Shown: positions 6,723 through 20,758 of the stretch, one piece after another | Numbering within the stretch: the first letter of the stretch is position 1 | Layout: every line of letters begins with the position of its first letter | Source of the DNA: Caulobacteraceae bacterium | GTDB taxonomy: Bacteria; Pseudomonadota; Alphaproteobacteria; Caulobacterales; Caulobacteraceae | NCBI GenBank assembly: GCA_947378235.1 | Contig: CANCJE010000011.1 | Span: 1-37,509 of the forward strand | DNA: 37,509 nt | Direction of reading: 5' to 3' | Position numbers and translations under genes: made by a program | The notes under the pieces: generated by a model | Told to the model about the DNA's origin: nothing | Seen by the model: only the letters and a program-made list of their open reading frames with translations | Databases searched by the model: none

Positions 6723-8945
6723 CTAGTCCCCCATTGATGCGCCGGGATAGAACGGCAGTGTGCGCAGGCGGGTCTTGGTCAGTTTGGCGAAGGCATTGGC
6801 GATGGCCGGAGCCACGCAAGGCACCCCGGTTTCACCAACCCCGCCCGGTGCCGCAGCCGTCGGACCCGTGCCGCCGACGATGGAGACGGCGATTGTGGGG
6901 GTGTCTCCCGCCTTAGCGACGCGATAGTTACTGAAGTTGCTGACGCTCGGCACGCCATTGGCAAAGGTCACCTGCCCCCACATAGCGGCCGACAGGCCGT
7001 GCAGTAGTCCGCCCTCCATCTGGCTTTCGATCTGGTCCGGGTTGATGGCCAGGCCGCAGTCGATGGCGCAGAACAGCTTGGTGACCTTAGGAATGATCAA
7101 GGTCGTGCGCGAGGCCGTGGTGACCGTGGTTTGAGAGACTTGGGCAACAACGGCGATGTAGCTGCCGAAACCCTTGAGGAAGGCAACGCCGCGCGCTGTC
7201 CCGGTCGTCGCTGTCGTGGTCCAGCCACTGAGAGTCTTAACAGCGTCCAGAACCGCAACAGCGCGGCTGTCACCGCCAGCAACCAACAGGGACCGGCGAA
7301 GCTCCATCGGATCAAGTCCGCCGGACAGAGCCAGCTCATCCAAGGCGCTTTCCACTGCAAAGGTGTTGTAGCTCTCGCCCACCGAACGCCAGTAACCCAA
7401 GGGGATGTCGGTGATCAGCGGGACATATTCGATCCGCTGGCCACCGATGGCATAGGGCAGATCGGCGGCACCGGCGATGGCCCCTGTATCTTCAGGATTG
7501 TTACCGGGCTTGGTATTGCGCTGGATGTTGATCGAGGGAGAGACGTTGCGATAGATCAGGCCGCTGAGAGCCTTGTTGGCATCGAGGCTTGCCTGCACCC
7601 GAATGGTCGCGCAGGGCCGGTACATGTCATTTTGGAAGTCTTGTTTGCGCGACCAGATCAGCTTGACGGGCTTGCCGACCGCCTTAGCGATCTTCACGGC
7701 CTGGCCGATATAGTCCTGCTCGATCTTGCGACCGAGACCGCCGCCAAGGAAGGTGGTGTGGACCGTGATGGCCGATGGAGCCAAGCCGGTAATGGCTTGA
7801 ATGGTTGGAATGCAAAATTGCTGGCCTTGGGTCGGGGCCCAAACCTCGCACGAGGTCGCCGTAACCGAGGCAGTGCAGTTTAAGACCTCCATACAGGCAT
7901 GGGCCAAGAAGGGCAGATTATAGGTCACATCGATCTTGGACTTGGCCGAGGCTAGCGCCGCGACGGGATCGCCTCCCGCCGTCTTGACAGAATTGAGGAC
8001 CGCCAGCGGGTCAGCCGCCAGCCGGCTCGCCGTGGCCTGCAGGGATGCGGAATCGCGCGAGGCCAGATTGGTTGGCAAGGTCCAAGTGATCTTTGAGGTC
8101 AGCGAATTGGCAATAGTCATCGCCGACCAGGTATCAGTCGCGACCACACCCACAGCATTTCCAAGATTGACCAGAGCAATTGCCCCAGACGCCGTAGTCG
8201 GCATGGTTTTCACCACCCCGCCAAGGGTTGGACAGTGCACGACGCTGGCATAGACCATGCCTGGAACCCGGACATCCATACCAAAGACCGCAGAACCATC
8301 GACCTTGGCTGGCACATCGACCCGCGCCATACGCTTGCCGATAACATTGGTCGTTGTCGCCAGCGTGACTGTGGTGGGGGGCGTCAAGCCCGCTGCGGTG
8401 CCGACCAGATCGCTGAACAGCAAGGTCTTTGTGCCGTTACTGACCTTGCCGCCAGGAACCAGGATCCAGGTTCCGGCACCGCCAACGACCGTTGCGGCCG
8501 CGATCAACATCTGACCGGCGGTCGCCGCAGCCTTGCGCAAGGGCGTATACCAGCCGCGCATACTGGTGCTGCCACCGGTGAGTTGGGCACCAAAGATTGG
8601 GTTGCCAAAGGGATTGGGCCAGACGGCTGAGGCCAGACCATGCTCGACCTTAATCTGGGTCCAGTTGAGTTGAAGCTCCTCAGCGACGAGCTGTGCGAGG
8701 CCCGTCATGATCCCCTGCCCCATCTCGGTAGAGCCAATCAGGAGCGTGACCGTGTCGGCACTATCAATCCTGAGATAGGCACCAAGCGCTGTTGCCAATG
8801 GGGCACCTGCCGTGCCGCTAACAGAAACGTTCGAATTGGAAACACTCGACAAAACGACTGGAACGACAAGTGCGGTTCCTGCCGCTGCGGCAACCACGCC
8901 CGTAACAACCGTACGGCGGCTAACATTTACGTCGGTCTCTGCCAT
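6723..8945 (-). CDS. Molybdopterin-binding large subunit, IorB-type aldehyde/heteroaromatic oxidoreductase
   Basis: Xanthine-dehydrogenase-family molybdenum hydroxylase, catalytic subunit, which inserts oxygen from water into an aldehyde or N-heterocycle. The product is 740 aa. The N-terminus has a Tat-like signal (SRRTVV at 9-14, then an Ala/Val-rich hydrophobic stretch), so the folded cofactor enzyme should be periplasmic. Motifs include TLLIGSTEMGQGIMTGLAQL near residue 65, FLGGGLGRKIEQD, and GGVGETG near the C-terminus with the expected catalytic Glu705. The small 2Fe-2S subunit is encoded 36 nt upstream and lacks its own signal, as usual for pairs exported together. IorAB (isoquinoline 1-oxidoreductase) is the named relative, but the substrate is not readable from sequence. 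No cytochrome or XdhC-like maturation gene lies beside it. Confidence 0.9.
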   Translation of the reverse strand: MAETDVNVSRRTVVTGVVAAAAGTALVVPVVLSSVSNSNVSVSGTAGAPLATALGAYLRIDSADTVTLLIGSTEMGQGIMTGLAQLVAEELQLNWTQIKVEHGLASAVWPNPFGNPIFGAQLTGGSTSMRGWYTPLRKAAATAGQMLIAAATVVGGAGTWILVPGGKVSNGTKTLLFSDLVGTAAGLTPPTTVTLATTTNVIGKRMARVDVPAKVDGSAVFGMDVRVPGMVYASVVHCPTLGGVVKTMPTTASGAIALVNLGNAVGVVATDTWSAMTIANSLTSKITWTLPTNLASRDSASLQATASRLAADPLAVLNSVKTAGGDPVAALASAKSKIDVTYNLPFLAHACMEVLNCTASVTATSCEVWAPTQGQQFCIPTIQAITGLAPSAITVHTTFLGGGLGRKIEQDYIGQAVKIAKAVGKPVKLIWSRKQDFQNDMYRPCATIRVQASLDANKALSGLIYRNVSPSINIQRNTKPGNNPEDTGAIAGAADLPYAIGGQRIEYVPLITDIPLGYWRSVGESYNTFAVESALDELALSGGLDPMELRRSLLVAGGDSRAVAVLDAVKTLSGWTTTATTGTARGVAFLKGFGSYIAVVAQVSQTTVTTASRTTLIIPKVTKLFCAIDCGLAINPDQIESQMEGGLLHGLSAAMWGQVTFANGVPSVSNFSNYRVAKAGDTPTIAVSIVGGTGPTAAAPGGVGETGVPCVAPAIANAFAKLTKTRLRTLPFYPGASMGD

Positions 8946-8981: not shown

Positions 8982-9428
8982 TCAGAGGCCCTGTTGCGCC
9001 TTGGTGATGCGCGGATAGGTGCCACAGACGCAGACATTGGAGGTGCCGGACGCCAGTTGGCTGCCATGATGACCGGCCTTCATGCCGCCCACCGTCGCCA
9101 TCAGCATCCCCGGTTGGCAAAAGCCGCACTGGGGGACCTGTTTATCGACCCAAGCCGCCTGCGCCTTCTTGCCATCGGCGTCAGCGGCGAGGCCTTCGAC
9201 CGTCATGATCGCTTTACCAACGGCTGATCCGACATCGTAATCGCAAGAGCGAACTGGCTGGCCGCCCACCAACACGGTACAGGCACCACAGACCTCGATG
9301 CCACAGCCATATTTCGTGCCCGTTAGACCGATTATATCGCGGATGACCCAAAGCAGCGGCATACCGGTGCTAGGGACACTGACGGCGTAGGTTTTGCCGT
9401 TGACGTTCAAAGTGAGGTTCGTTGCCAT
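8982..9428 (-). CDS. 2Fe-2S subunit of an IorA-type molybdenum hydroxylase
   Basis: Electron-transfer small subunit that carries electrons from the molybdenum site. It is 148 aa with two iron-sulfur domains. The plant-ferredoxin-type cluster uses Cys42, Cys47, Cys50 and Cys62 (CGIEVCGAC...C). The second, four-helix cluster uses Cys101, Cys104, Cys133 and Cys135 (CGFC...CVC). All eight ligands are intact. The start at 9428 is preceded by AAGGA about 13 nt away, inside a perfect 12-bp palindrome. It is the first gene of a two-gene minus-strand operon with the large subunit, divergent from the virB operon. Confidence 0.93.
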   Translation of the reverse strand: MATNLTLNVNGKTYAVSVPSTGMPLLWVIRDIIGLTGTKYGCGIEVCGACTVLVGGQPVRSCDYDVGSAVGKAIMTVEGLAADADGKKAQAAWVDKQVPQCGFCQPGMLMATVGGMKAGHHGSQLASGTSNVCVCGTYPRITKAQQGL

Positions 9429-9848: not shown

Positions 9849-10472
9849 ATGTCTGACGGTCGCAAAAAGGAAAGACTGGCTCGCCCCCTACTGATCGGGG
9901 GGCTTTTGGGCGTGCTCGCTGCCCTGTCATGCGCATCCGCCTTTGGTCAGGTGATCGAAATTTCTCCGGACGGCACGATCATTACCCATTCTGGGCCCGC
10001 CACCTACAGTGGCCCAGGCCAGCCCTCTCACCCCCTATCCCAACCGGCAACGCACCGGGCGACAGTGTCAGCAACCTCCGCTCCTCAGGCCGCAATTGCC
10101 CTGTCCGCCAAAAATGCAGGCCTAAGTCCTGCACTCGTCGAGGCGGTGGCATGGACGGAGTCTCGCATGAACCAATCGGCGCGGTCTGCGAAGGGGGCGC
10201 GAGGGGTGATGCAGTTGATGCCAGCAACTGCGCGCCAGATGGGTGTCAATCCAGAGCAGCTTGAAGGCAATGTCGAAGGCGGCACCCGTTATCTTAGCGG
10301 CCTTTTGGTGCGTTTTGATGGGGATTTGATCAATAGCCTCGCCGGTTATAATGCCGGACCAGAGGCCGTACGCCAACATGGTGGAATTCCGCCTTATCGT
10401 GAGACGAAGGCCTATGTATCTGCGATAATGGATAGACTTGCAGACACGGCACTTAAAGGGGACGCGCGATGA
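9849..10472 (+). CDS. virB1: VirB1-like lytic transglycosylase of the type IV secretion operon
   Basis: Cuts peptidoglycan to let the secretion channel cross the periplasm. The product is 207 aa from ATG 9849, which places a signal peptide (RPLLIGGLLGVLAALSCASAFGQ) at the N-terminus. An in-frame ATG at 9687 would add 54 residues ahead of it and is less likely. The SLT domain occupies roughly 85-200, with catalytic Glu104 in AWTES, then GARGVMQLMPATA, and AGYNAGPEAV. The ribosome binding site is weak. It is the first gene of an eight-gene operon; its stop overlaps the virB2 start by 4 nt (ATGA). Other SLT enzymes look alike, but position identifies it. Confidence 0.9.
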   Translation: MSDGRKKERLARPLLIGGLLGVLAALSCASAFGQVIEISPDGTIITHSGPATYSGPGQPSHPLSQPATHRATVSATSAPQAAIALSAKNAGLSPALVEAVAWTESRMNQSARSAKGARGVMQLMPATARQMGVNPEQLEGNVEGGTRYLSGLLVRFDGDLINSLAGYNAGPEAVRQHGGIPPYRETKAYVSAIMDRLADTALKGDAR

Positions 10473-10795
10473 CGAACCGATCCAGTCACATCAAGCTTTC
10501 ATCGGGCGTTATGGGGCTCGTTTGGGCGTCGGCAAGCGCGGCTCAGGCTCAGGTTGCGGATCCTGCCGGGTCTGGACCGATCCTTAATGCCCTAACCTGG
10601 ATCCAAAATACGCTGATGGGCACGGTCGCGACAACAGCGGCGGTCATTGCCATTGCGGCTGTGGGCTTCATGATGCTGACCGGTCGGATTGACTGGCGCC
10701 GGGGCCTCACCGTCATCTTGGGGGCCTTCATTATATTTGGTGCCGCAGCCATCGTTGCGGGCATCCGCGCGGCGGCCACGGGGTCGCCCTCATGA
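10469..10795 (+). CDS. virB2: VirB2 major pilin
   Basis: Prepilin whose mature form builds the T4SS pilus. It is 108 aa: a signal peptide probably cleaved after AAQAQ or AQA near residue 28, then a mature pilin of about 80 residues. Two hydrophobic helices (about 49-68 and 79-97) flank a short charged cytoplasmic loop TGRIDWRRG, the classic VirB2/TrbC layout. The start overlaps the virB1 stop by 4 nt and the end overlaps virB3 by 4 nt, so it is translationally coupled. Pilins are normally needed in large amounts, yet no extra ribosome binding site or internal promoter is obvious. Confidence 0.9.
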   Translation: MTNRSSHIKLSSGVMGLVWASASAAQAQVADPAGSGPILNALTWIQNTLMGTVATTAAVIAIAAVGFMMLTGRIDWRRGLTVILGAFIIFGAAAIVAGIRAAATGSPS

Positions 10796-11076
10796 GCCGA
10801 CTGACCTCTGATCCGGTCTTTGCTGCCCTCACCCGCCCTCAGATGATCGGCGGCGTGACCTATAGCTATGCGGTGTTCAACCTGATTGTGACGCTGGAAG
10901 CCTTTTTGATCACCAAGAGCTTTTGGACCCTGCTGATCGCCCCCATCATCCACGTCGTTGGCTATGTTGCCTGCCTGAATGAGCCGCGTTTCTTTGATCT
11001 CTGGATCACCCGTGTCCGTGAGTGCCCACGGATCGGGAATTTTAACTTCTGGCGCATCAATACGTATCAGCCTTGA
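10792..11076 (+). CDS. virB3: VirB3 inner-membrane T4SS protein
   Basis: Small membrane protein that associates with the VirB4 ATPase in the inner-membrane complex. It is 94 aa, the usual size. The N-terminus DPVFAALTRPQMIGGVTYS is the family hallmark, then one or two membrane segments around 24-60, and a C-terminal cytoplasmic tail (EPRFFDLWITRVRECP). It overlaps virB2 and virB4 by 4 nt each. Confidence 0.92.
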   Translation: MSRLTSDPVFAALTRPQMIGGVTYSYAVFNLIVTLEAFLITKSFWTLLIAPIIHVVGYVACLNEPRFFDLWITRVRECPRIGNFNFWRINTYQP

Positions 11077-13460
11077 GCCCGAAATTCGCCTCACTAGGCC
11101 TCGCAGGCCGTCTTGCCGCCAAAGAAGCGCGGGTGGGCCAACGGCTGCCCTATGCGGGCCATGTCGATGAACGGACCATCCGCACGCGCGACGGGAACCT
11201 TGTGCAGATCCTGCACCTGCAGGGCCTGTCGTTCGAAACCCGGACGGACGACGAGCTGAACTATCGTAAAATCCTACGCGAAACCCTGCTGCGCAGCATC
11301 GCGACCTCACGCCTCGCCGTCTATCACCATGTCATCCGCCGCGAGGTTGCACCCCATCTCCAAGGCAGGCCTGAAACTCCGTTCGGGCTGGGCCTCGATG
11401 AGACTTGGAAAGACCAACTGAATCGGCGTCGCCTGTTCGTCAACGACCTCTATTTGACCCTGGTCCATCGCCCGCTTCAGGGGGAAGCCGGTCTGATCGA
11501 AAAGCTGTTTGGACGGGGTCAAGGTGAGGCCAATCTGGCGGCGAACCTGCGCAATCTCAACGCCTTGAGGGAATCGGTTCAAGCCGCCCTTGCCCCCTAT
11601 GGCCCGCGCCTGCTGACAACCATCACGACCACGACCGGTACGCGTTCGGAGCCGGCGGAGGTTCTTGCCAATATTGTCAATGCCGCATCGACCAAGGTTC
11701 TCGCCCCCAGCGGCGATCTGGGTGAGGCCCTTGCGACCCGACGACTGAATTTCGGGGCCGACGCGATGGAATTTGCCGCCTCAGGCGTGCAGCCTTCCAC
11801 CTTTGGAGCCATTGTCTCGATCAAGGACTATCCGGCCAAGACCATTCCCGGCCTGCTCGATCCGGTTCTTCGCCTACCCTACGAGATGGTGCTGAGCGAA
11901 AGCTTCGTCTTCCTTGATCGCCCGGTAGCCTTAGGTCGGATGAACCTCGCCCTTCGTCGCTTGCGGGCAGCCGATGACGACGCCTTTAGTCTGCGCAATG
12001 ATCTGATGGCCGCGCGGGACGATTTGGGCGCAGGTCGCACCGTCTATGGCGAACATCACCTGTCGATCCTGGTCCAGGACGAGGACCTGGCCAGCCTTGA
12101 TCTGGCCTGCGCCGATGTCCAATCCGCACTTGGCGAGTCCGGCATTATTGCGGTGCGAGAACTGGTCAATCTGGAACCCGCCTTCTGGGCCCAGTTTCCT
12201 GGCAATTTCCAATATATTGCCCGCAAGGCCCTGATCTCAGCGTCGAACTTCTCGAGCTTGGCCAGCCTGCACAGCCATCCTCGCGGTCAGACGCGCGACC
12301 TGCATTGGGGCGCACCCGTGACCGTCTTGGAGTCCACGGCGTCCGGCCCATACAATTTCAGCTTTCACAATGGCGATCTGGGAAACTTCACCGTGATCGG
12401 CCCGAGCGGTAGCGGCAAGACCGCACTGCTTAACTTCTTGGCGGCGCAGGCCGAAAAATTCCATCCGCGAACGGTCATTTTTGACAAGGATCGGGGTGCT
12501 GAAGCCTTTGTTCGCGCCAGTGGTGGACGCTATGACCGGCTGTCACCCGGCGAGCCATCAGGCCTCAACCCGCTCAAGCTCCCTGACACGGCGGAAAATC
12601 GACTGTTCCTGAGGGACTGGCTGTCACGGCTCTTGACCCGCGAGGGAATGGAACTGGATCCCGGCGAGCAGGCAACCATCGCCGATGCCGTCGACGCGCT
12701 CTATCAGCAGGCTCCAGAGCTGCGGCAACTGGTTCATGTCCGTGACCTGCTGCAAGGCATGCGCCGCCCGGTACCCGGAGATTTGGCAGCGCGCCTTGCC
12801 CCCTGGATTGGCCAAGGTGAACATGCTTGGCTGTTTGACAATGCCGAAGACCGGATCGATCTCAGCGCCCGGATGCTCGGGGTCGACATGACGCGGTTGC
12901 TCGACAGCCCCGTTCTGCGCACCCCGGCCATGATGTATCTGTTTCACTGTATTGAGCAGAGCCTCGATGGGACACCTTCGATCATCATTGTCGATGAGGG
13001 CTGGAAGGCCTTGGACGACGAGGTCTTTGTCCGCCGCATTCGAGATTGGCAAAAGACCATCCGGAAGCGCAACGGCATCTTGGGCTTTTGCACGCAAAGC
13101 GCATCCGATGCGCTGGACAGCAAGATTGCCTCGGCCATTGTCGAACAGTCTGCGACCCAGATCTTCTTCCCCAATTCTAAGGCTCGGCCGCAAGACTATG
13201 TCGATGGATTTGGCCTGACCGAACATGAGTTCGAGTTGGTTCGGACCCTGCCCGACACCTCCCGCTGCTTTCTGATCAAGCAAGCCGACCATAGCGTCGT
13301 CGCCCGGCTCGACCTGTCCAACATGCCCGGATATTTGCGGGTTCTGGCGGGAACTGAGCGCAATATTCGCGCGCTGGATGGGCTCCGCGAGCGCCTCGGT
13401 GATGATCCCACAGCGTGGCTGGAAACCTTCATGTCGGACAGCAACGGAGGCCGCGCATGA
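11073..13460 (+). CDS. virB4: VirB4 ATPase of the type IV secretion system
   Basis: Hexameric ATPase that drives pilus assembly and substrate transfer at the inner membrane. It is 795 aa, full length. The N-terminal CagE/TrbE/VirB domain covers roughly 1-400. The P-loop is GPSGSGKT at 443-450. Walker B is IIIVDEGWK with Asp641 and Glu642. The downstream arginine-containing motif and FCTQSASDAL are present. The start used here is TTG at 11073, overlapping the virB3 stop (TTGA); this matches the 4-nt overlap seen at every other junction, and the first residues read like a VirB4 N-terminus. A later start is possible but would break that pattern. Confidence 0.95.
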   Translation: MSPKFASLGLAGRLAAKEARVGQRLPYAGHVDERTIRTRDGNLVQILHLQGLSFETRTDDELNYRKILRETLLRSIATSRLAVYHHVIRREVAPHLQGRPETPFGLGLDETWKDQLNRRRLFVNDLYLTLVHRPLQGEAGLIEKLFGRGQGEANLAANLRNLNALRESVQAALAPYGPRLLTTITTTTGTRSEPAEVLANIVNAASTKVLAPSGDLGEALATRRLNFGADAMEFAASGVQPSTFGAIVSIKDYPAKTIPGLLDPVLRLPYEMVLSESFVFLDRPVALGRMNLALRRLRAADDDAFSLRNDLMAARDDLGAGRTVYGEHHLSILVQDEDLASLDLACADVQSALGESGIIAVRELVNLEPAFWAQFPGNFQYIARKALISASNFSSLASLHSHPRGQTRDLHWGAPVTVLESTASGPYNFSFHNGDLGNFTVIGPSGSGKTALLNFLAAQAEKFHPRTVIFDKDRGAEAFVRASGGRYDRLSPGEPSGLNPLKLPDTAENRLFLRDWLSRLLTREGMELDPGEQATIADAVDALYQQAPELRQLVHVRDLLQGMRRPVPGDLAARLAPWIGQGEHAWLFDNAEDRIDLSARMLGVDMTRLLDSPVLRTPAMMYLFHCIEQSLDGTPSIIIVDEGWKALDDEVFVRRIRDWQKTIRKRNGILGFCTQSASDALDSKIASAIVEQSATQIFFPNSKARPQDYVDGFGLTEHEFELVRTLPDTSRCFLIKQADHSVVARLDLSNMPGYLRVLAGTERNIRALDGLRERLGDDPTAWLETFMSDSNGGRA

Positions 13461-14614
13461 TTGCGACCTGCGCCGCCCTAGCGGAACATTCCGGGACTAT
13501 TCGCGGGGCTATGGACGCCGTTGAGTGTCACTCTAGGACCTATGCCCAAGCCGGGTATGAGGCACTTGGCGGGGCGGGGTCACCCTTCCAATCCTGGCTC
13601 AACATCCTGTTGGTGATCTATGTCGCGGCGCTCGGCTATCGGCTGATGATGGGGCACGACAGCCGCTCCTTCAACCTGACCACCATCGGCCTGACCCTTG
13701 GCGCTGTTGTGGCTTTGGTAGGCAACTGGACCCTGTTTCAGACCCTCGTCTTTGATCTGGTGACCAAGGCCCCGCTAGAAGTGGCCGCGATCGTGACCCA
13801 TCCAGCGACCAACAATTCCGCCTTTGCAGGAGACCCACGCGCCTCGATACAGGTGGTCTATGATCAGCTATCGCTCGCGGCGGCGGACTTTGCGCGCGCC
13901 AGTGGTCCAAACACCCCGATCTATGCTGGCGGAAAGTCCGGCGCGGCTCAGGCCCTATGGCAATCGTCGCAGAGCCTATTTTACGCCACAGCCGGCGTCT
14001 TTAGCCTCAGCGTCATTACTGCCGCCGTTTTAACCGCCGTTGGCCCCATCCTCATCACCCTGTCCCTGTTTGAGGTGACCCGTGGCCTCTTTGCAGGCTG
14101 GGTGCGTGGGCTCCTGGCGGCCCTTTTGGTGAGCTTGCTCTGTTGGCTGTCAGCAGCCCTGATGTTGTCGATCCTGGAGCCGGGATTGATCACCTTGGCC
14201 CGCCAAAGGATGGCTGGAGACCTTCAGGTTGATACGGCCTTGAGCGTCAGTGCCCTGGTGATGTTGTTTAGCGTCGTGCAGGTGGGCGTCGCGTCCATGG
14301 GCGTGATGATGGCTATGGGCTTCAAATGGCCCGAATCGACCGCCTCTCGCGCAAGGCCAAGTCAGGTCCGTACCGACATCTCGATGACTGAAGGTGTGGG
14401 TCGCAGATCCGGTGAAAGCCTATCAAGGGCTGAACAACTCTCTACGACCCTTCGCCAGTCCCCTGCCAGCCAAGCCTATCGCACAGACCTGACGGGCCCA
14501 CGCCCTGCAGCCTCGCTATCGGGCTTAGCAAACAATGACACAGATCAACGCCTAACCGGCATGACCAACCGCCGCGCGGGCCGGTTGCCGGACCAGGACA
14601 GGGTAAGACCATGA
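13457..14614 (+). CDS. virB6: VirB6/TrbL polytopic membrane protein
   Basis: Inner-membrane channel component of the T4SS. It is 385 aa from ATG 13457, chosen because it overlaps the virB4 stop by 4 nt (ATGA). An upstream in-frame start at 13415 would add 14 residues inside virB4. Several hydrophobic segments are visible: WLNILLVIYVAALGYRLMM, TIGLTLGAVVALVGNW, VFSLSVITAAVLTAVGPILI, GLLAALLVSLLCWLSAALML, and SALVMLFSVVQVGVASMGV. The last 80 residues are polar and disordered-looking. The gene ends 4 nt into virB9. No virB5 precedes it, and neither virB7 nor virB8 follows it. Confidence 0.9.
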   Translation: MIATCAALAEHSGTIRGAMDAVECHSRTYAQAGYEALGGAGSPFQSWLNILLVIYVAALGYRLMMGHDSRSFNLTTIGLTLGAVVALVGNWTLFQTLVFDLVTKAPLEVAAIVTHPATNNSAFAGDPRASIQVVYDQLSLAAADFARASGPNTPIYAGGKSGAAQALWQSSQSLFYATAGVFSLSVITAAVLTAVGPILITLSLFEVTRGLFAGWVRGLLAALLVSLLCWLSAALMLSILEPGLITLARQRMAGDLQVDTALSVSALVMLFSVVQVGVASMGVMMAMGFKWPESTASRARPSQVRTDISMTEGVGRRSGESLSRAEQLSTTLRQSPASQAYRTDLTGPRPAASLSGLANNDTDQRLTGMTNRRAGRLPDQDRVRP

Positions 14615-15402
14615 TCCGCCGCCTCGTTCTTATCATGGCTATTGGCCTATTGATGGGCAGTCCCGCCCACGCACTCATCGCCCCGACGCCCGGTCCGGGG
14701 GATGGTCGGATCCGCACAACCCTCTATGACCCCAATCAGGTGGTCATGCTCACCGGGGTCTTGGGCTATCAGTTCAGCATCGGCTTTGGCGAGGGCGAGC
14801 GGATCGAGAATGTCTCCATCGGCGATGCGATGGGTTGGCAAGTCACGCCCAATGCCAAGGCCACGCTGCTGTTCATCAAGCCGATCTTGGCCGGGGCCAC
14901 GACCAATATGACGGTGGTGACGAACCTGCGGCGCTACGCCTTCGAGTTGGCGGTCGAGAGGCGCTCGGGGAAAGCGGCCTCTGGCACGGCGCTCTATGGC
15001 CTGCAATTTCTCTATCCCGCCCCGCCCAAATCCAGCGAACCCGTCAAGCCAGAGCCTCCAGCCTCCCCAACCATCGCCAACAGCGCCTACAGCTATGAAG
15101 GCTCGACCCAGACCCTGCCGAGTCAGGTCTTTGATGATGGCAAGGCGACCTATTTTAGGTTTGCAGAGCGCGGCACCTATCCGGCGGTCTTTGTTCTCGA
15201 AGAGAAGAACGGCGAGTCCATCGTCAACTCGGCCACGCGCGGTGACTATCTGGTGGTCGATCAGGTCGCTAAGGGTTTCGTCCTTCGACAGGGCGATCAG
15301 GTGACCCGCATCTTTAACGAAGGGTTCGAAACCCAGTCCGTCGGTCCGCTGAGCCCTCGCCCGAGGGCAAAGCCCAAATCGCGAGGCCTGTTTCGCAAAT
15401 GA
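14611..15402 (+). CDS. virB9: VirB9 outer-membrane core-complex protein
   Basis: Forms the outer-membrane core ring with VirB10 and, in the canonical system, the lipoprotein VirB7. It is 263 aa with a Sec signal peptide ending PAHA-L near residue 22. The N-terminal beta domain covers about 30-130 (RIRTTLYDPNQVVMLTG, GWQVTPNAKATLLFIKP). After a Pro-rich linker (PPKSSEPVKPEPPASP) comes the C-terminal VirB7-binding-type domain, about 155-245 (PSQVFDDGKATYFRFAERGTYPAVF, then the RGDYLVVDQVAKGFVLRQG region). It overlaps virB6 and virB10 by 4 nt. No lipobox is seen here, and there is no separate virB7. Confidence 0.93.
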   Translation: MIRRLVLIMAIGLLMGSPAHALIAPTPGPGDGRIRTTLYDPNQVVMLTGVLGYQFSIGFGEGERIENVSIGDAMGWQVTPNAKATLLFIKPILAGATTNMTVVTNLRRYAFELAVERRSGKAASGTALYGLQFLYPAPPKSSEPVKPEPPASPTIANSAYSYEGSTQTLPSQVFDDGKATYFRFAERGTYPAVFVLEEKNGESIVNSATRGDYLVVDQVAKGFVLRQGDQVTRIFNEGFETQSVGPLSPRPRAKPKSRGLFRK

Positions 15403-16520
15403 CCGTTCCCGATAAGGACAGTGCTGTCTTCGACTATGGCCGAGGCCTTACGCCCGGCGTTCAGGTCCGATCATCGCCTTGGGTCATGCCTCTGGCCATT
15501 ATTGGGCTCGCGGTCCTTGCGGGTCTCGTCTTTACGAGCCTTCAATCGGCTCGCCTTACGCGACAAAAGTCAGCGTCAATCAGCGCGCAACCCGCTCAGA
15601 CACAGGTCTTTCAGCCGACCGTGGTACCTCCCGTCACGGTCAACACCGAACCGCCCGCCTTCCCGGTCGCCATGCCAGAGGCGGCAATGGCCCCGGTCCC
15701 ATCGCCGACAGTCGCCCTAGCGCCACAGACCGTCGATGCGAACGTTCGCCTTAAGGCACCAGCCGTGATCGTTGACCTGTCGGGACAGACCGCAACCGTC
15801 CAAGTGCAGGCCCAGCCTGCCGCGTCAGCGCTGCAAGGGGCCAACAGCGACAATAGCCGCCAGTCCGCCGAGGACCGCTTCACCGCAAGGGTGCTGAGCG
15901 GTTCAGCCGAGACTGCGAGCGCCACTAGCATTGGTAATCTCTCGACCACAGCGGTTCAGGGCACGGTGATCCCCGCCGTTCTGGAAACGGCGATCAACTC
16001 CACCCTGCCCGGCTTTGTGCGCGGCGTTGTCACCCGCGATGTGCGCGGGTTTGATGGCAATCTCGTCTTGATCCCACGCGGCTCCAAGCTCATCGGCCAG
16101 TACCATGCCGGGGTTGCTCAGGGCCAATCCAGAGCCTTTGTCGTCTGGTCGCGCGTGGTTACGCCAGAGGGCATATCGGTCGATGTTGGCTCTCCGGGGA
16201 CCGATACGCTCGGGCGCGGCGGCATTGAGGGCGAGACCGACAATCAGTTTTTCCGCCGATTTGGCGGCTCGATCATGCTGTCGGTCCTGACAGCGGCATT
16301 GGACTCAGCAACGGGTCATGGCTCTAACAGCACGGCCATTGTCATCGGCTCAAGCACGCAAGCGACCAATATTGCTCAGATCGCACTGCAAAAGCAGATC
16401 GATATTGCGCCGATCATCCGCATTCCGCAGGGCGAGCCGATCCGGGTGTTTCTGGTCCGGGATGTCGATTTCTCGAAAATCTCTGGGGTGAATGCACGGC
16501 CAAAGGGCCCTGCGCGATGA
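15399..16520 (+). CDS. virB10: VirB10 core-complex protein spanning both membranes
   Basis: Connects the inner-membrane ATPases with the outer-membrane pore. It is 373 aa. A short cytoplasmic N-terminus leads to one membrane helix at 28-48 (WVMPLAIIGLAVLAGLVF). A Pro/Ala-rich periplasmic linker runs to about 110, and the C-terminal TrbI/VirB10 beta barrel occupies about 180-365. Family motifs include VTRDVRGFDGNLVLIPRGS, GQYHAGVAQGQSR and DTLGRGGIEGETDNQFFRRF. It overlaps virB9 and virB11 by 4 nt. Confidence 0.95.
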   Translation: MTVPDKDSAVFDYGRGLTPGVQVRSSPWVMPLAIIGLAVLAGLVFTSLQSARLTRQKSASISAQPAQTQVFQPTVVPPVTVNTEPPAFPVAMPEAAMAPVPSPTVALAPQTVDANVRLKAPAVIVDLSGQTATVQVQAQPAASALQGANSDNSRQSAEDRFTARVLSGSAETASATSIGNLSTTAVQGTVIPAVLETAINSTLPGFVRGVVTRDVRGFDGNLVLIPRGSKLIGQYHAGVAQGQSRAFVVWSRVVTPEGISVDVGSPGTDTLGRGGIEGETDNQFFRRFGGSIMLSVLTAALDSATGHGSNSTAIVIGSSTQATNIAQIALQKQIDIAPIIRIPQGEPIRVFLVRDVDFSKISGVNARPKGPAR

Positions 16521-17497
16521 GCGAAGGGCTGTTCCTACAGAGCTATCTTGCCCCATTAGAACCCTGGCTCAAGACCGAGACGGTGACTGATATTCTGGTC
16601 AATCGTCCCGGTGAGGTTTGGGTCGAGACCCAGACCGAGGGCCTAATGCGACATGAGGCCCCGGACCTTACGGAGGTCGTTCTGGGCCGATTGGGGCGAC
16701 AGATTGCGGCGGCCACCCATCAGGGCCTCAGTCGCGAACACCCCTTGTTGAGCGCGGCCCTGCCCGACGGCTCGCGCGTACAGATCATCGCGCCCCCCGC
16801 CTCTCGTGACGGCCTTTTGCTGGCCATCCGACGCCATGCCATTGTCGATCTAGACCTCAACCGCTTAGCTGAAACTCAATTTTTCGAACCGAGCCAAGTG
16901 GGTCAGGGTGCCGATGACGACCGTTACCTGCAAGACCTCCTGATCAAAGGGCAGACGCAGAAATTTCTGAGTGAGGCCGTCAAGCATCGCAAGACCATCG
17001 TCATTTCAGGCGGAACCGGGTCGGGCAAGACCACCCTGCTCAACGCCTTGCTCAAGGAAATTCCGTCGGGAGAGCGGTTGGTGCTGATTGAGGATGCGCC
17101 GGAGGTCCAACTCGGACGCGACAATTCGATCGGCCTACTGGCGGTTCGGGGCGATCAGGGTGAAACACAGGTCGATGCCCATGACCTGCTGACTGCTGCC
17201 CTGCGCATGCGCCCTGATCGCATTTTGCTGGGAGAACTGCGCGGGCGCGAGGCCTTGGCCTTTTTGCGTGCGGTCAATTCGGGACATCCGGGCTCAATCA
17301 CGACCGTTCACGCCAATGACCCCAAGGGCGCGCTCGATCAAATCACGCTGCTGACCATGAGCGGCGACATCTCACTGGACTGGGTAACGGCTCGCGCTCA
17401 GATCGATCGGATGGTCGATATTGTCGTTCAGGTCAGCCGCAAAAATGGCCGCCGAGGCATCCAAGACATCGCCTTTTCCCCGCGCCTCGAGCCTTAG
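16517..17497 (+). CDS. virB11: VirB11 traffic ATPase
   Basis: Cytoplasmic hexameric AAA ATPase of the secretion NTPase family that switches VirB4 between pilus making and substrate export. It is 326 aa. The N-terminal domain (about 10-150) precedes the P-loop GGTGSGKT at 165-172, an Asp box (LVLIEDAPEVQL), Walker B (RILLGELRGREAL) and the His box (GHPGSITTVHAND). It closes the operon. Its TAG stop (17495-17497) overlaps the TAA stop of the opposing DUF1501 gene, so no terminator can sit between them. Confidence 0.96.
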   Translation: MSEGLFLQSYLAPLEPWLKTETVTDILVNRPGEVWVETQTEGLMRHEAPDLTEVVLGRLGRQIAAATHQGLSREHPLLSAALPDGSRVQIIAPPASRDGLLLAIRRHAIVDLDLNRLAETQFFEPSQVGQGADDDRYLQDLLIKGQTQKFLSEAVKHRKTIVISGGTGSGKTTLLNALLKEIPSGERLVLIEDAPEVQLGRDNSIGLLAVRGDQGETQVDAHDLLTAALRMRPDRILLGELRGREALAFLRAVNSGHPGSITTVHANDPKGALDQITLLTMSGDISLDWVTARAQIDRMVDIVVQVSRKNGRRGIQDIAFSPRLEP

Positions 17498-19044
17498 AGA
17501 AAGCCCAGATAGGGCGTGTTGAAGTTCTTGAGGTTCGGGAAAATGGTTTGCAGATCACTGTCCGTCGCGCCAAGCCAGCGTCCCATGGTCGCCCCATACT
17601 GATCCACAGAAACACGGGGGATCATGATTGAACCGGCAAAATCGGGGTTGTTGAAACTTCCCGCATCCAATCCAACCGTTGGGAACTGGCCGTAAATATC
17701 CTTACCCTTGACCGCTCCGCCCATGACGAAATGGTGTCCACCCCATGCATGATCGGTCCCATCGCCATTGCTGGCAAAGGTGCGCGAGAAGTCCGACGCC
17801 GTGAAGGTGGTGACATTGGCGCGCATATCCAAACCGCCAATATTGCCCAGCACGCCATCAAAATAGGACATGGCGTGGGCGACCTGTGTCAGCAAACCCG
17901 GCTGCATGTCGTTTTGATAGTCGTGATTGTCGAAGCCGCCGATGCCGACAAAGAACACCTGCCGCTTCAGCCCTAAGGTGGGTCCTGCAGCGATCATCTT
18001 AGCGACTGACTGAAGTTGCTGCGCCAATGGATTGGCTGCGCTCACACCGGTAGAGGGGTGAACATAGTTGGTCGGCGCAGGGACGGCAGCGGGTGAAGCG
18101 GTTTGAAAGGCGGCATTGAGTCCTGCGGCGGCGCTAATGGACCGAGCCGTCAGGTCATTATAGTCCGCGCTCATCATGTTGGTGTTGGTGGAACTCTGAA
18201 TAATGTCCCGCATGATCGATGGAGCCACGCTGGAACCGAATAGCGACGTTGCGTTGGTGCCGGTGATTGAAACAGCGGGCGAGTTTCCGGTCGTGATCTG
18301 ATATTGCGCGATGGATTGCCCGGCGAGAAACACCGCATTGCCGGCCAAGGATACGCCGGTAAAGATGGTATTATTGCCATTCATGCTGGCCAACAGGTCT
18401 GCAAAACGGCCACCCCAACCGACCTTGGTCCCCTCTGTCTTCCCCGACTGCCAGGTCGAGACCTGGTCGTTGTGGGAAAAGAGATTGATCGGCAGGGTCG
18501 CGGTCTTGGCCTGATAGGCCGCCTTGGTCACCGGCGTCACCAGCGTACCGATATTGGCCACGGCCGCTAACCGTCCAGCGTTAAACAGGGTTCGCAAAGG
18601 CCCAAGCGCGGGATGGAGCGCAAAGGAACGCGCAGACGCATTGGTCCCGGAAGGCACAGGATTGACGGTGTTCGGTACGATGGGAAGAACACCGCCCCAG
18701 GCCTCTGGCATGTTCATGGCCACGGTACGCTTGGTGAAGGTCGAGACCTGACCCACAGCCGTTGCGGGGGTTCCCACCGGCATCAAGGCGATGGGCTCGC
18801 TGCCAATATTTCGGGTGTTGTAATAGCGGGTCCATGAATCTGTGTCGGTCGCGAGTAACATATTGTTGGCGTCATTGCCGCCGAACATGAACAGACAGAC
18901 CAGCGCCTTATAGTCCGGTGCGCTCTGTCCAGCGGCCGACCCAACAGCGGCCATCTGCAAGGCAAAGGGCGCAGCCGTTCCCAGCATGGACAGGGCTCCG
19001 CCTGCCCTCAGAAAATGCCTTCGATCCCAGTTTCCGATGCTCAT
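17494..19044 (-). CDS. DUF1501 family exported protein
   Basis: Function unknown; the family is related to the sulfatase/alkaline-phosphatase superfamily. It is 516 aa. The N-terminus carries a twin-arginine motif (DRRHFLRAGGAL, Arg8-Arg9) and a hydrophobic stretch, so Tat export is likely. Family features include VCLFMFGGNDANNML near residue 50, FALHPALGPLRTLFNAGRLA, and FSRTFASNGDGTDHAWGGHH toward the C-terminus, whose Asp/His cluster could bind metal. A GAGGG ribosome binding site precedes ATG 19044. It lies 10 nt after the DUF1800 gene on the same strand; this pairing is widespread, which suggests a joint role at the cell surface. Its end overlaps that of virB11. Confidence 0.88.
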   Translation of the reverse strand: MSIGNWDRRHFLRAGGALSMLGTAAPFALQMAAVGSAAGQSAPDYKALVCLFMFGGNDANNMLLATDTDSWTRYYNTRNIGSEPIALMPVGTPATAVGQVSTFTKRTVAMNMPEAWGGVLPIVPNTVNPVPSGTNASARSFALHPALGPLRTLFNAGRLAAVANIGTLVTPVTKAAYQAKTATLPINLFSHNDQVSTWQSGKTEGTKVGWGGRFADLLASMNGNNTIFTGVSLAGNAVFLAGQSIAQYQITTGNSPAVSITGTNATSLFGSSVAPSIMRDIIQSSTNTNMMSADYNDLTARSISAAAGLNAAFQTASPAAVPAPTNYVHPSTGVSAANPLAQQLQSVAKMIAAGPTLGLKRQVFFVGIGGFDNHDYQNDMQPGLLTQVAHAMSYFDGVLGNIGGLDMRANVTTFTASDFSRTFASNGDGTDHAWGGHHFVMGGAVKGKDIYGQFPTVGLDAGSFNNPDFAGSIMIPRVSVDQYGATMGRWLGATDSDLQTIFPNLKNFNTPYLGFL

Positions 19045-19054
19045 CAGATCGCCC

Positions 19055-20758
19055 TCACTTCTGGACCAGATATTCAGGCGAGACCATCGACAGGAACACC
19101 GCCAACTTGGCGCGATTGAGCAGGGCAGCGTCGGTCTGAGCCTGGGTGGGCGTCCCCGTCGGCAGAGCCACGCCGGTCACGGCATTGATGATTTGAGTCC
19201 GCAAGCCCGCAGACATCTGGCCCGCGTAAAGCATCCGGTTCATCCGATCGACGAGGGCGGCCGGGTCCTTCGCCAGCGCCATCTCTTGGGTGTAGCTTGC
19301 CTTAACATCCGCCCCCGTGCCGATGCCGTTGCCTATGGCTGACTGCATCATATTGGCATAGCCCGCTACACTGACCTCATCGGCAATTTGGAACTCTGGG
19401 GCCGTGAGGTTTTGCTGCGCCAAGCGAGTATTGGGCGGCACAAATCCTGGACGGTAGAAGTTGAAGACTGTCGGCGCCGTTAGGGGCGCCTCGGCCAAAG
19501 ATGTTCGACTGGCCGTGCTGCCAATTAAATAGTTCCCAGAGGCTGACACGGTGCCAAAGGTCCTCATCCAATTGCCGAGCCTAACGATGGGCTCCCGTAA
19601 CTTGCCATAGGTCGTGCCCGTTGCCGTCGCGCTGTCACGCGCCTCGCTATCGAGCAATATGGCCTTGACGACAGCGGCCATGTCGCCCCGCACGCCAGAG
19701 CCATTATTGTTAAATACGGCTGAAACCCGGCCGATATAGGCGGGGCTTGGATTGCTGGTGACCAGATTTTGAATAAGCCGCCGCGCCATAAAGGGACCGA
19801 CATTGGGATCGTTATAGAGACGGTCCAGCGCGACCTTGATCTCACCCTCTGGGTCCGCCGTGGTGCTCGCCGCGATGTTGGTTCCAAGGAAGCTCTTGGC
19901 GGAGGTCGAGTGATAGGCCGGATAGAAGATCATCGGCGTTATGCTGGCATTGGCATTGCGTGTCCCACCCTTAAAGGTGGTGGCGGTCGGGGTCGGAGAA
20001 TACCAGCTCATGCCGGTAAAGACCTTGGCCAAGCCCGATATGTCTTGGGGCGCATAGGTCGGCACCAATGCGCCGGACGAGTCCAGAACCGCCGACCCAT
20101 CCGCGTTCATCTTGTAAAGGCCGATGCTCATCAGTTGCATCACTTCACGGGCATAGTTTTCATCGGGCTGCTTACCGGTAACCGGGTCTTCCTTCTGGTT
20201 CCCCAGACTGGTCAGGTAGATACCCATCATCGGGTGCAGGGTGACTGCCTGAAGTAGGTCGCGATAGTTCCCAAAGGCCCGCTCCCCAAGCATGTCGTAG
20301 TAGGACGCTGCCCCACGCGCATCGACATTGGGATCCGCAAGCGAGATGACGAAAATCTGCGAGAGGGCAAACTTTACACGCTGGCGCAACTGGTCCGGTG
20401 AACTGGCCGCCTGCGACCAGAAGCTTTCGTAAAACTCAGTCGCGCTGAGGGTCGCCTTAGCGTTGGTGGCCTGCATCTCCGTCAGTCGTCGATCGACAAA
20501 GGCCTGATGCGAGGCCGAGGGTGCCAGTGCCAACTGATCAGCAACCCAGGTGGAGTAGCCCTTGGACTTGACCTGCTCAATGTCCGCGTCCGTTACGCCA
20601 AAGGTGGCTTGGGTGACGAGGCGTGCGGCATCGGAGTCTGAAATCGTCACCGCGGTTGGAACTGGGCCCGTAGAGGTAGAACCGCCGCCTCCCCCGCCGC
20701 CACAGGCCGACAGAAAGACAGCCAAGGTCAAGACCAGAGAACGCGAGCGGTTGAGCAT
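19055..20758 (-). CDS. DUF1800 family lipoprotein
   Basis: Function unknown. It is 567 aa. It starts with a lipoprotein signal (LTLAVFLSAC, lipobox Cys19) followed by a run of seven Gly and a Ser/Thr linker, typical of a surface tether. The DUF1800 domain fills the rest: DAARLVTQATFGVTDADIEQVK, RVKFALSQIFVIS, DENYAREVMQLMSIGLY, TGMSWY, and FNFYRPGFVPP. A GAGAAGG ribosome binding site lies just ahead of ATG 20758. It is the first of the DUF1800-DUF1501 pair, 76 nt downstream of nnrD. A 14-codon reading frame with its own strong ribosome binding site lies in that gap. Confidence 0.9.
   Translation of the reverse strand: MLNRSRSLVLTLAVFLSACGGGGGGGSTSTGPVPTAVTISDSDAARLVTQATFGVTDADIEQVKSKGYSTWVADQLALAPSASHQAFVDRRLTEMQATNAKATLSATEFYESFWSQAASSPDQLRQRVKFALSQIFVISLADPNVDARGAASYYDMLGERAFGNYRDLLQAVTLHPMMGIYLTSLGNQKEDPVTGKQPDENYAREVMQLMSIGLYKMNADGSAVLDSSGALVPTYAPQDISGLAKVFTGMSWYSPTPTATTFKGGTRNANASITPMIFYPAYHSTSAKSFLGTNIAASTTADPEGEIKVALDRLYNDPNVGPFMARRLIQNLVTSNPSPAYIGRVSAVFNNNGSGVRGDMAAVVKAILLDSEARDSATATGTTYGKLREPIVRLGNWMRTFGTVSASGNYLIGSTASRTSLAEAPLTAPTVFNFYRPGFVPPNTRLAQQNLTAPEFQIADEVSVAGYANMMQSAIGNGIGTGADVKASYTQEMALAKDPAALVDRMNRMLYAGQMSAGLRTQIINAVTGVALPTGTPTQAQTDAALLNRAKLAVFLSMVSPEYLVQK

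Follow-up and report, generated by a model that had tools for sequence, protein, structure and literature searches.

A virB operon without virB8 and virD4 in a Caulobacteraceae genome, its relatives, and a possible role in the export of surface lipoproteins

Introduction

What can a type IV secretion system (T4SS) do without VirB8 and VirD4? The question is raised by a compact operon of eight virB genes at positions 9849-17497 (+) of a 37,509-nucleotide stretch from a Caulobacteraceae bacterium (assembly GCA_947378235.1, contig CANCJE010000011.1), hereafter the window. In these machines the tip of the pilus is VirB5, and cytoplasmic substrates are recruited by VirD4; the operon encodes neither of them, nor VirB7 or VirB8. 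The original prediction, made from the letters of the window, was that the missing parts are encoded elsewhere or that this is a reduced apparatus. Our analysis argues for the latter. The operon belongs to a lineage of VirD4-less systems under purifying selection, in which the presence of VirB8 has changed repeatedly and beside which genes for twin-arginine translocation (Tat) proteins and poly-glycine lipoproteins recur. We tentatively propose that the apparatus may export such proteins to the cell surface.

VirB8 is listed for every model or structurally characterised T4SS (PMC12624023), and in the solved systems it anchors VirB4 and builds the arches that surround the site of pilus assembly (PMC9259494, PMC12624023). 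In the open literature (subscription papers were not covered), we found nothing on VirB8-less T4SSs beyond a footnote in the survey of Persson et al. 2009, which names Erythrobacter litoralis HTCC2594 and Erythrobacter sp. NAP1 (PMC2702493). These too are VirB operons of alphaproteobacteria for which no VirB8 is listed; they differ in that VirD4 was among the proteins required for a positive score. They appear only in that table footnote, and relatives, evolution or neighbourhood are not treated there (PMC2702493).

Results

Pfam recognises all eight products of the operon, and NCBIfam most of them, as follows:

9849-10472, +, virB1, lytic transglycosylase (PF01464 SLT, 71.9 bits)
10469-10795, +, virB2, pilin (PF04956 TrbC/VirB2, 67.4 bits)
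10792-11076, +, virB3 (PF05101, 95 bits; NF010474 above its cut-off)
11073-13460, +, virB4, ATPase with TTG start and intact Walker A GPSGSGKT (TIGR00929, 727.9 bits, over cut-off)
13457-14614, +, virB6, polytopic inner-membrane protein, TrbL (PF04610, 74.5 bits; length as in virB8-bearing sisters)
14611-15402, +, virB9, outer-membrane core, CagX (PF03524, 178.9 bits; closest solved relative R388 TrwF)
15399-16520, +, virB10, envelope-spanning core, TrbI (PF03743, 182.8 bits; closest solved relative R388 TrwE)
16517-17497, +, virB11, ATPase with Walker A GGTGSGKT (TIGR02788, 339.4 bits, over cut-off)

The seven junctions all overlap by exactly 4 nt, six as ATGA and one, at virB4, as TTGA, and virB9 begins directly after virB6, leaving no space for virB5, virB7 or virB8. 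The profiles and the junction check thus confirm the eight intact genes and the closed gene order first described. No short lipobox reading frame for VirB7 lies within the operon and VirB9 contains no cysteine, a negative that covers the operon only, as VirB7 is too short for a safe genome-wide search. The combination of a TIGR00929 VirB4 with VirB3, VirB6, VirB9, VirB10 and VirB11 identifies a P-type T4SS.

The host genome (G000) is a metagenome-assembled genome (MAG) of 2.8 Mb in 211 contigs, about 89% complete. Since its own absences are not final, we included relatives, among them the closed genomes G083 and G068. The VirB8 model PF04335 had no match in the host MAG, in same-genus genomes or in the two closed genomes; the model works, because it matched in 74 of 149 genomes of the family. 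A family-specific VirB8 profile, built from sister operons and giving about 1e-102 for two positive controls, had no match at E<=0.1 in 15 operon carriers, the host MAG included. As two profiles are silent in closed genomes, we reject the possibility that VirB8 is encoded elsewhere. Its fusion into VirB6, VirB9 or VirB10 is rejected as well, these genes being as long as in VirB8-bearing sisters.

VirD4 (PF02534) was absent from G000, G036, G001, G023 and both closed genomes, and was not found in 17 of the 24 operon carriers searched, the closed ones among them. VirB5 (PF07996) was found in neither the host MAG nor the closed relatives, a weaker negative because no control genome matched. The relaxase model PF03432 had no match in the host MAG or G083 and a weak one in G068 (the MobA/MobL and TrwC families were not searched). 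A Caulobacter vibrioides control genome yielded VirB9 and neither VirB8 nor VirD4. The genome-wide search therefore recovered none of these missing parts from the host MAG, and closed and near-complete relatives carry the same operon, also without VirB8, VirB5 and VirD4, as expected of a conserved reduced apparatus. The original doubt about conjugation is supported by the lack of VirD4 and PF03432 relaxase in the host MAG and in G083. An assembly or MAG artefact is rejected, since dozens of loci in independent genomes, among them several closed ones and isolates, have the same VirB8-less gene order.

Loci around VirB4 homologues, 40 and then 40 more, were annotated with profiles made in this analysis. 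They show two architectures with one gene order, either B1-B2-B3-B4-B6-B9-B10-B11 or the same with B8 between B6 and B9. A scan of named genomes widened the range of the two architectures to Caulobacter, Phenylobacterium, Asticcacaulis, Aquidulcibacter, Hyphomonadaceae, Sphingomonadales, a Rhizobiales isolate and Xanthomonas bonasiae, and VirD4 adjoins the operon at none of these 80 loci from the scan. VirB5, VirB7 and VirD4 are missing across the whole lineage; VirB8 alone varies.

In the VirB4 trees, VirB8-less and VirB8-bearing operons interleave, with three state changes in a tree of 81 rows and six in one of 128 rows, at least five changes in the latter being forced by well-supported branches. 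The true minimum is a little lower, because L071, scored as VirB8-less, is a broken operon: this canonical-clade virB operon (G117 C19) breaks off after virB6, and B8, B9, B10 and B11 are not recognised downstream. A mobile element may have interrupted it. A single loss of VirB8 is rejected, as the trees need three to six changes (L071 not to be counted). Because VirD4-bearing canonical systems and several VirB8-bearing operons branch outside, the simplest reading of the trees is one of repeated VirB8 losses within a lineage that by then had no VirD4, in Caulobacterales, Sphingomonadales and one Xanthomonas. The original prediction had counted relatives with the missing genes in the same operon against a reduced system. 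This objection is half borne out, in that sister operons have virB8 in place; these sisters, however, indicate loss of VirB8 rather than an artefact.

Between the window and a 97% relative (L025), the ratio of nonsynonymous to synonymous substitution (dN/dS) is 0.05-0.07 for virB2, virB4, virB6, virB9, virB10 and virB11, 0.13 for virB3 and 0.19 for virB1. Such low ratios imply that the operon is in use.

Some records stand apart by taxonomy. In the Xanthomonas bonasiae FX4 contig (L239, about 4.3-13.2 kb), a gammaproteobacterial VirB8-less operon is nested in the Caulobacteraceae clade with a dioxygenase-like gene adjoining, and operon and passenger were likely transferred together horizontally. 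Two records titled Candidatus Sulfopaludibacter and Mucilaginibacter (L196, L167) bear this alphaproteobacterial operon and are probably misbinned or mistitled MAGs.

The window contains the following genes beside the operon:

17494-19044, -, DUF1501 protein with Tat-like signal DRRHFLRAGG, candidate substrate or partner (PF07394, 119.2 bits; linked to such operons in many genomes)
19055-20758, -, DUF1800 lipoprotein with lipobox and poly-Gly, N-terminus ...FLSAC-GGGGGGG, candidate substrate (PF08811, 295.8 bits)
6723-8945, -, molybdopterin oxidoreductase large subunit with Tat-like signal SRRTVVTG (PF02738, PF20256)
8982-9428, -, [2Fe-2S] small subunit of the same oxidoreductase (PF01799, PF00111)

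The statement that no effector lies beside the operon is not supported: the best candidates for substrates, overlooked at first, are the adjoining DUF1501/DUF1800 pair and, in relatives, unrelated Tat proteins and poly-Gly lipoproteins. The DUF1501 gene is convergent with virB11, tail to tail, with a 4-nt overlap. The DUF1800 protein has GGG at P2'-P4' after the lipobox cysteine (...SAC-GGGGGGG) and is the sole A-C-G6 match in the host genome. Its predicted structure is a confident, mostly helical fold (predicted local distance difference test score 87) with no fold match in the PDB, so that no function could be assigned from structure; a PDB sequence search with DUF1501 and DUF1800 matched neither. 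Genes of both families are on record next to those for bacterial chitin synthases, DUF1501 there with a Tat signal (PMC5122149), and we found no paper in the open literature linking either to a T4SS. The oxidoreductase pair lies directly upstream of the operon and adjoins it also in L025 and L101; its Tat-signal subunit is a possible further passenger.

To what extent such neighbours are linked to the operons was measured by a six-frame scan of operon flanks for lipobox-Cys-polyGly starts, with a random 400 kb from carrier genomes as background. There were 25 starts in 344 kb flanking VirB8-less operons, spread over 23 of the 50 non-redundant loci. The flanks of VirB8-bearing VirD4-less operons had 3 in 157 kb, and there were none either in 99 kb flanking canonical virB/virD4 operons or in the background. 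They span unrelated families, namely DUF1800, dioxygenase-like proteins, a lipoprotein of about 500 residues, DUF3443 and others. The DUF1501/DUF1800 pair occurs at 25 of 72 non-redundant VirD4-less loci, with the dioxygenase-like lipoprotein alone at five more; it recurs on either side of the operons in either orientation, and changes state 21 times on the VirB4 tree. Loci without the pair often have unrelated poly-Gly lipoproteins, such as the protein of about 500 residues (...AGCGGADNVASPGEG...), DUF3443 and those at L058 and L032. Tat-like signals were called in 30 of 241 operon neighbours vs 9 of 361 background genes.

Of the 132 Ala-Cys-Gly6 motifs counted genome-wide, 21 are no more than 10 kb away from such an operon, against an expectation of 0.37. 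The motif is commoner in carriers than in other genomes, and a reversed control pattern shows no carrier excess. This excess is largely due to Asticcacaulis; with that genus removed, the motif occurs in 22 of 47 vs 19 of 76 genomes (Fisher p 0.011). Among linked DUF1800 proteins, 32 of 53 are poly-Gly. The long kind of DUF1800 is a lipoprotein and is nearly always T4SS-linked or in carrier genomes, whereas the short kind has no lipobox and is found everywhere; the DUF1800 profile was built from linked members, and the lipobox is independent of it. We hold the linkage persuasive because it recurs over unrelated protein families and because poly-Gly linkage changes state 11 times on the tree.

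Two further observations concern these families. Five Asticcacaulis genomes (G068, G088, G098, G108, G144) carry extra DUF1800/DUF1501 pairs with Cys-polyGly that are not linked to the operon, possibly further substrates. At six loci (L028, L061, L063, L097, L103, L105), a large TonB-dependent receptor adjoins the SPGEG lipoprotein family of about 500 residues beside the operon, and the two may form a receptor-lipoprotein pair.

Discussion

The Ptl system of Bordetella is a VirD4-less and VirB5-less T4SS that acts on substrates already in the periplasm, with the substrate genes adjoining; it differs from the present operon in keeping VirB7 and VirB8 homologues, in having no VirB1 and in its unrelated substrate. 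By gene content the present system resembles such an exporter, as no VirD4 or VirB5 was found and the adjoining candidate substrates bear export signals. A machine without VirB8, VirB5 and VirD4 that retains both ATPases, the pilin, VirB6 and the outer-membrane core is best read as a Ptl-like exporter of periplasmic substrates.

The poly-Gly stretch suggests where such substrates might be held. In Pseudomonas, Cys-GGG is a motif for Lol avoidance and inner-membrane retention, and it is a required, though not sufficient, sorting motif of surface lipoproteins dependent on the type II secretion system (T2SS) (PMC12802150). Given this retention role, the inner membrane would be where poly-Gly lipoproteins are held until the T4SS takes them to the surface. 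In the proposed sequence, Sec or Tat would first take passengers through the inner membrane; the Cys-poly-Gly lipoproteins would escape the Lol pathway and remain in that membrane, facing the periplasm; and the VirB2/B3/B6/B9/B10 apparatus, powered by VirB4 and VirB11, would move them through the outer membrane, together with Tat partners, DUF1501 for example. VirB8, the scaffold for pilus building and inner-complex anchoring, would be dispensable. Beyond gene adjacency we infer every step, including which proteins are the substrates, which way they are transported, what poly-Gly does and that the proteins end up at the surface. We therefore favour only tentatively, at slightly under an even chance, the view that this VirD4-less, VirB5- and VirB7-less P-type lineage, which lost VirB8 several times, is a second-step exporter of Sec- and Tat-exported lipoproteins and their partners. 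The stronger formulation, that it is a distinct VirD4-independent T4SS class, workable without the VirB8 arches, dedicated to surfacing Cys-poly-Gly lipoproteins with Tat partners and thus a counterpart of the T2SS/GspN route, is put forward with less confidence still.

The conjugative P-type Trw system of R388 (7o3j, PMC9259494) supplies the closest solved relatives of VirB9 and VirB10 (TrwF and TrwE) and shares the VirB2/3/4/6/9/10/11 families in the same relative order; unlike the window operon, for which none of these was found, it has TrwJ (VirB5), TrwH (VirB7), TrwG (VirB8, forming the arches and inner-complex tails), VirD4 and a relaxase. The canonical chromosomal virB/virD4 loci of the same family (L072-L082) have homologous VirB genes, with VirB4 about 40% identical, but there VirB8 and VirD4 adjoin and the flanks are without poly-Gly lipoproteins.

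Several points weigh against lipoprotein export. The neighbour-gene linkage is guilt by association, and fewer than half of the VirB8-less loci lie close to a gene for a poly-Gly lipoprotein. Simple patterns, rather than SignalP, served to call signal peptides, and GspN, the absence of which is used below, was sought with one Pfam model (PF01203). The linked DUF1800 of C. vibrioides DSM 9893 (L206/L031) shows no lipobox. Many loci are related, so that raw p-values overstate independence and are upper bounds on the strength of the evidence. Some VirB8-bearing operons have the same neighbours, L196, L199 and L232 with poly-Gly, and hence the idea that poly-Gly neighbours are confined to VirB8-less operons is wrong. 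Nor is there a statistical tie between VirB8 loss and passengers: with three to four independent contrasts, and no trend for poly-Gly lipoproteins, the notion that passenger type caused the loss is not supported, the contrasts being too few.

Among other explanations, a reduced system for pilus or adhesin display seems unlikely but is the most probable of them. Here VirB2 pili without VirB5 and VirB8 would serve attachment, and the exported neighbours would be unrelated surface genes in a shared neighbourhood. The pilin, VirB3/4/6/11 and the outer-membrane core are indeed all kept, and the Trw system of Bartonella is a VirD4-less T4SS used for attachment. However, the missing parts are exactly the tip or adhesin, VirB5, and VirB8 with its arches round the pilus assembly site (PMC9259494, PMC12624023). 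Display would not predict poly-Gly and Tat neighbours either, and poly-Gly starts are zero both beside canonical virB operons and in the background.

Somewhat less probable is that the poly-Gly lipoproteins and Tat proteins leave by the T2SS, as in Acinetobacter, while the adjoining T4SS does something else. T2SS/GspN export (InvL, pullulanase) is likewise a two-step route with Cys-GGG, or another motif, favouring inner-membrane association; Cys-GGG is needed for it (PMC12802150), and Caulobacter crescentus has a T2SS (PMC2996285). The machine is nevertheless a different one, and the alternative is weakened because a search for GspN, which this route requires, came back empty for 30 of the 35 carriers, including the host MAG and all Asticcacaulis tested, the genomes with the most poly-Gly lipoproteins. 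Moreover, the motif clusters at T4SS operons, and C. crescentus brings the lipoprotein ElpS to its surface without the T2SS.

A machine for DNA uptake or release, or conjugation with VirD4 and relaxase supplied by another element, appears improbable. Helicobacter pylori imports DNA with ComB, a T4SS that has no VirD4, and some genomes have other conjugative elements with VirD4. Yet ComB keeps a VirB8, closed G083 and most near-complete genomes are without VirD4 and PF03432 relaxase, and no DNA-processing genes lie beside the operon. Finally, a decaying remnant of a conjugative T4SS, suggested by the missing parts, is very improbable and is refuted by conservation across many genera and several orders and by purifying selection, with eight open frames, retained 4-nt overlaps and core dN/dS of about 0.05-0.07.

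Because VirB8 is listed for all T4SSs with a characterised structure (PMC12624023), a machine that does without it, is widespread and under selection, and has arisen repeatedly provides a natural experiment on the role of the arches. If the link to lipoproteins is true, T4SSs would join the T2SS, SLAM and the Bacteroidetes route as exporters of surface lipoproteins. The reduced system is apparently also encoded by the C. vibrioides control genome, which would make the proposal testable in a standard laboratory organism, one with at least one surface lipoprotein, ElpS, that passes the outer membrane by a non-T2SS route.

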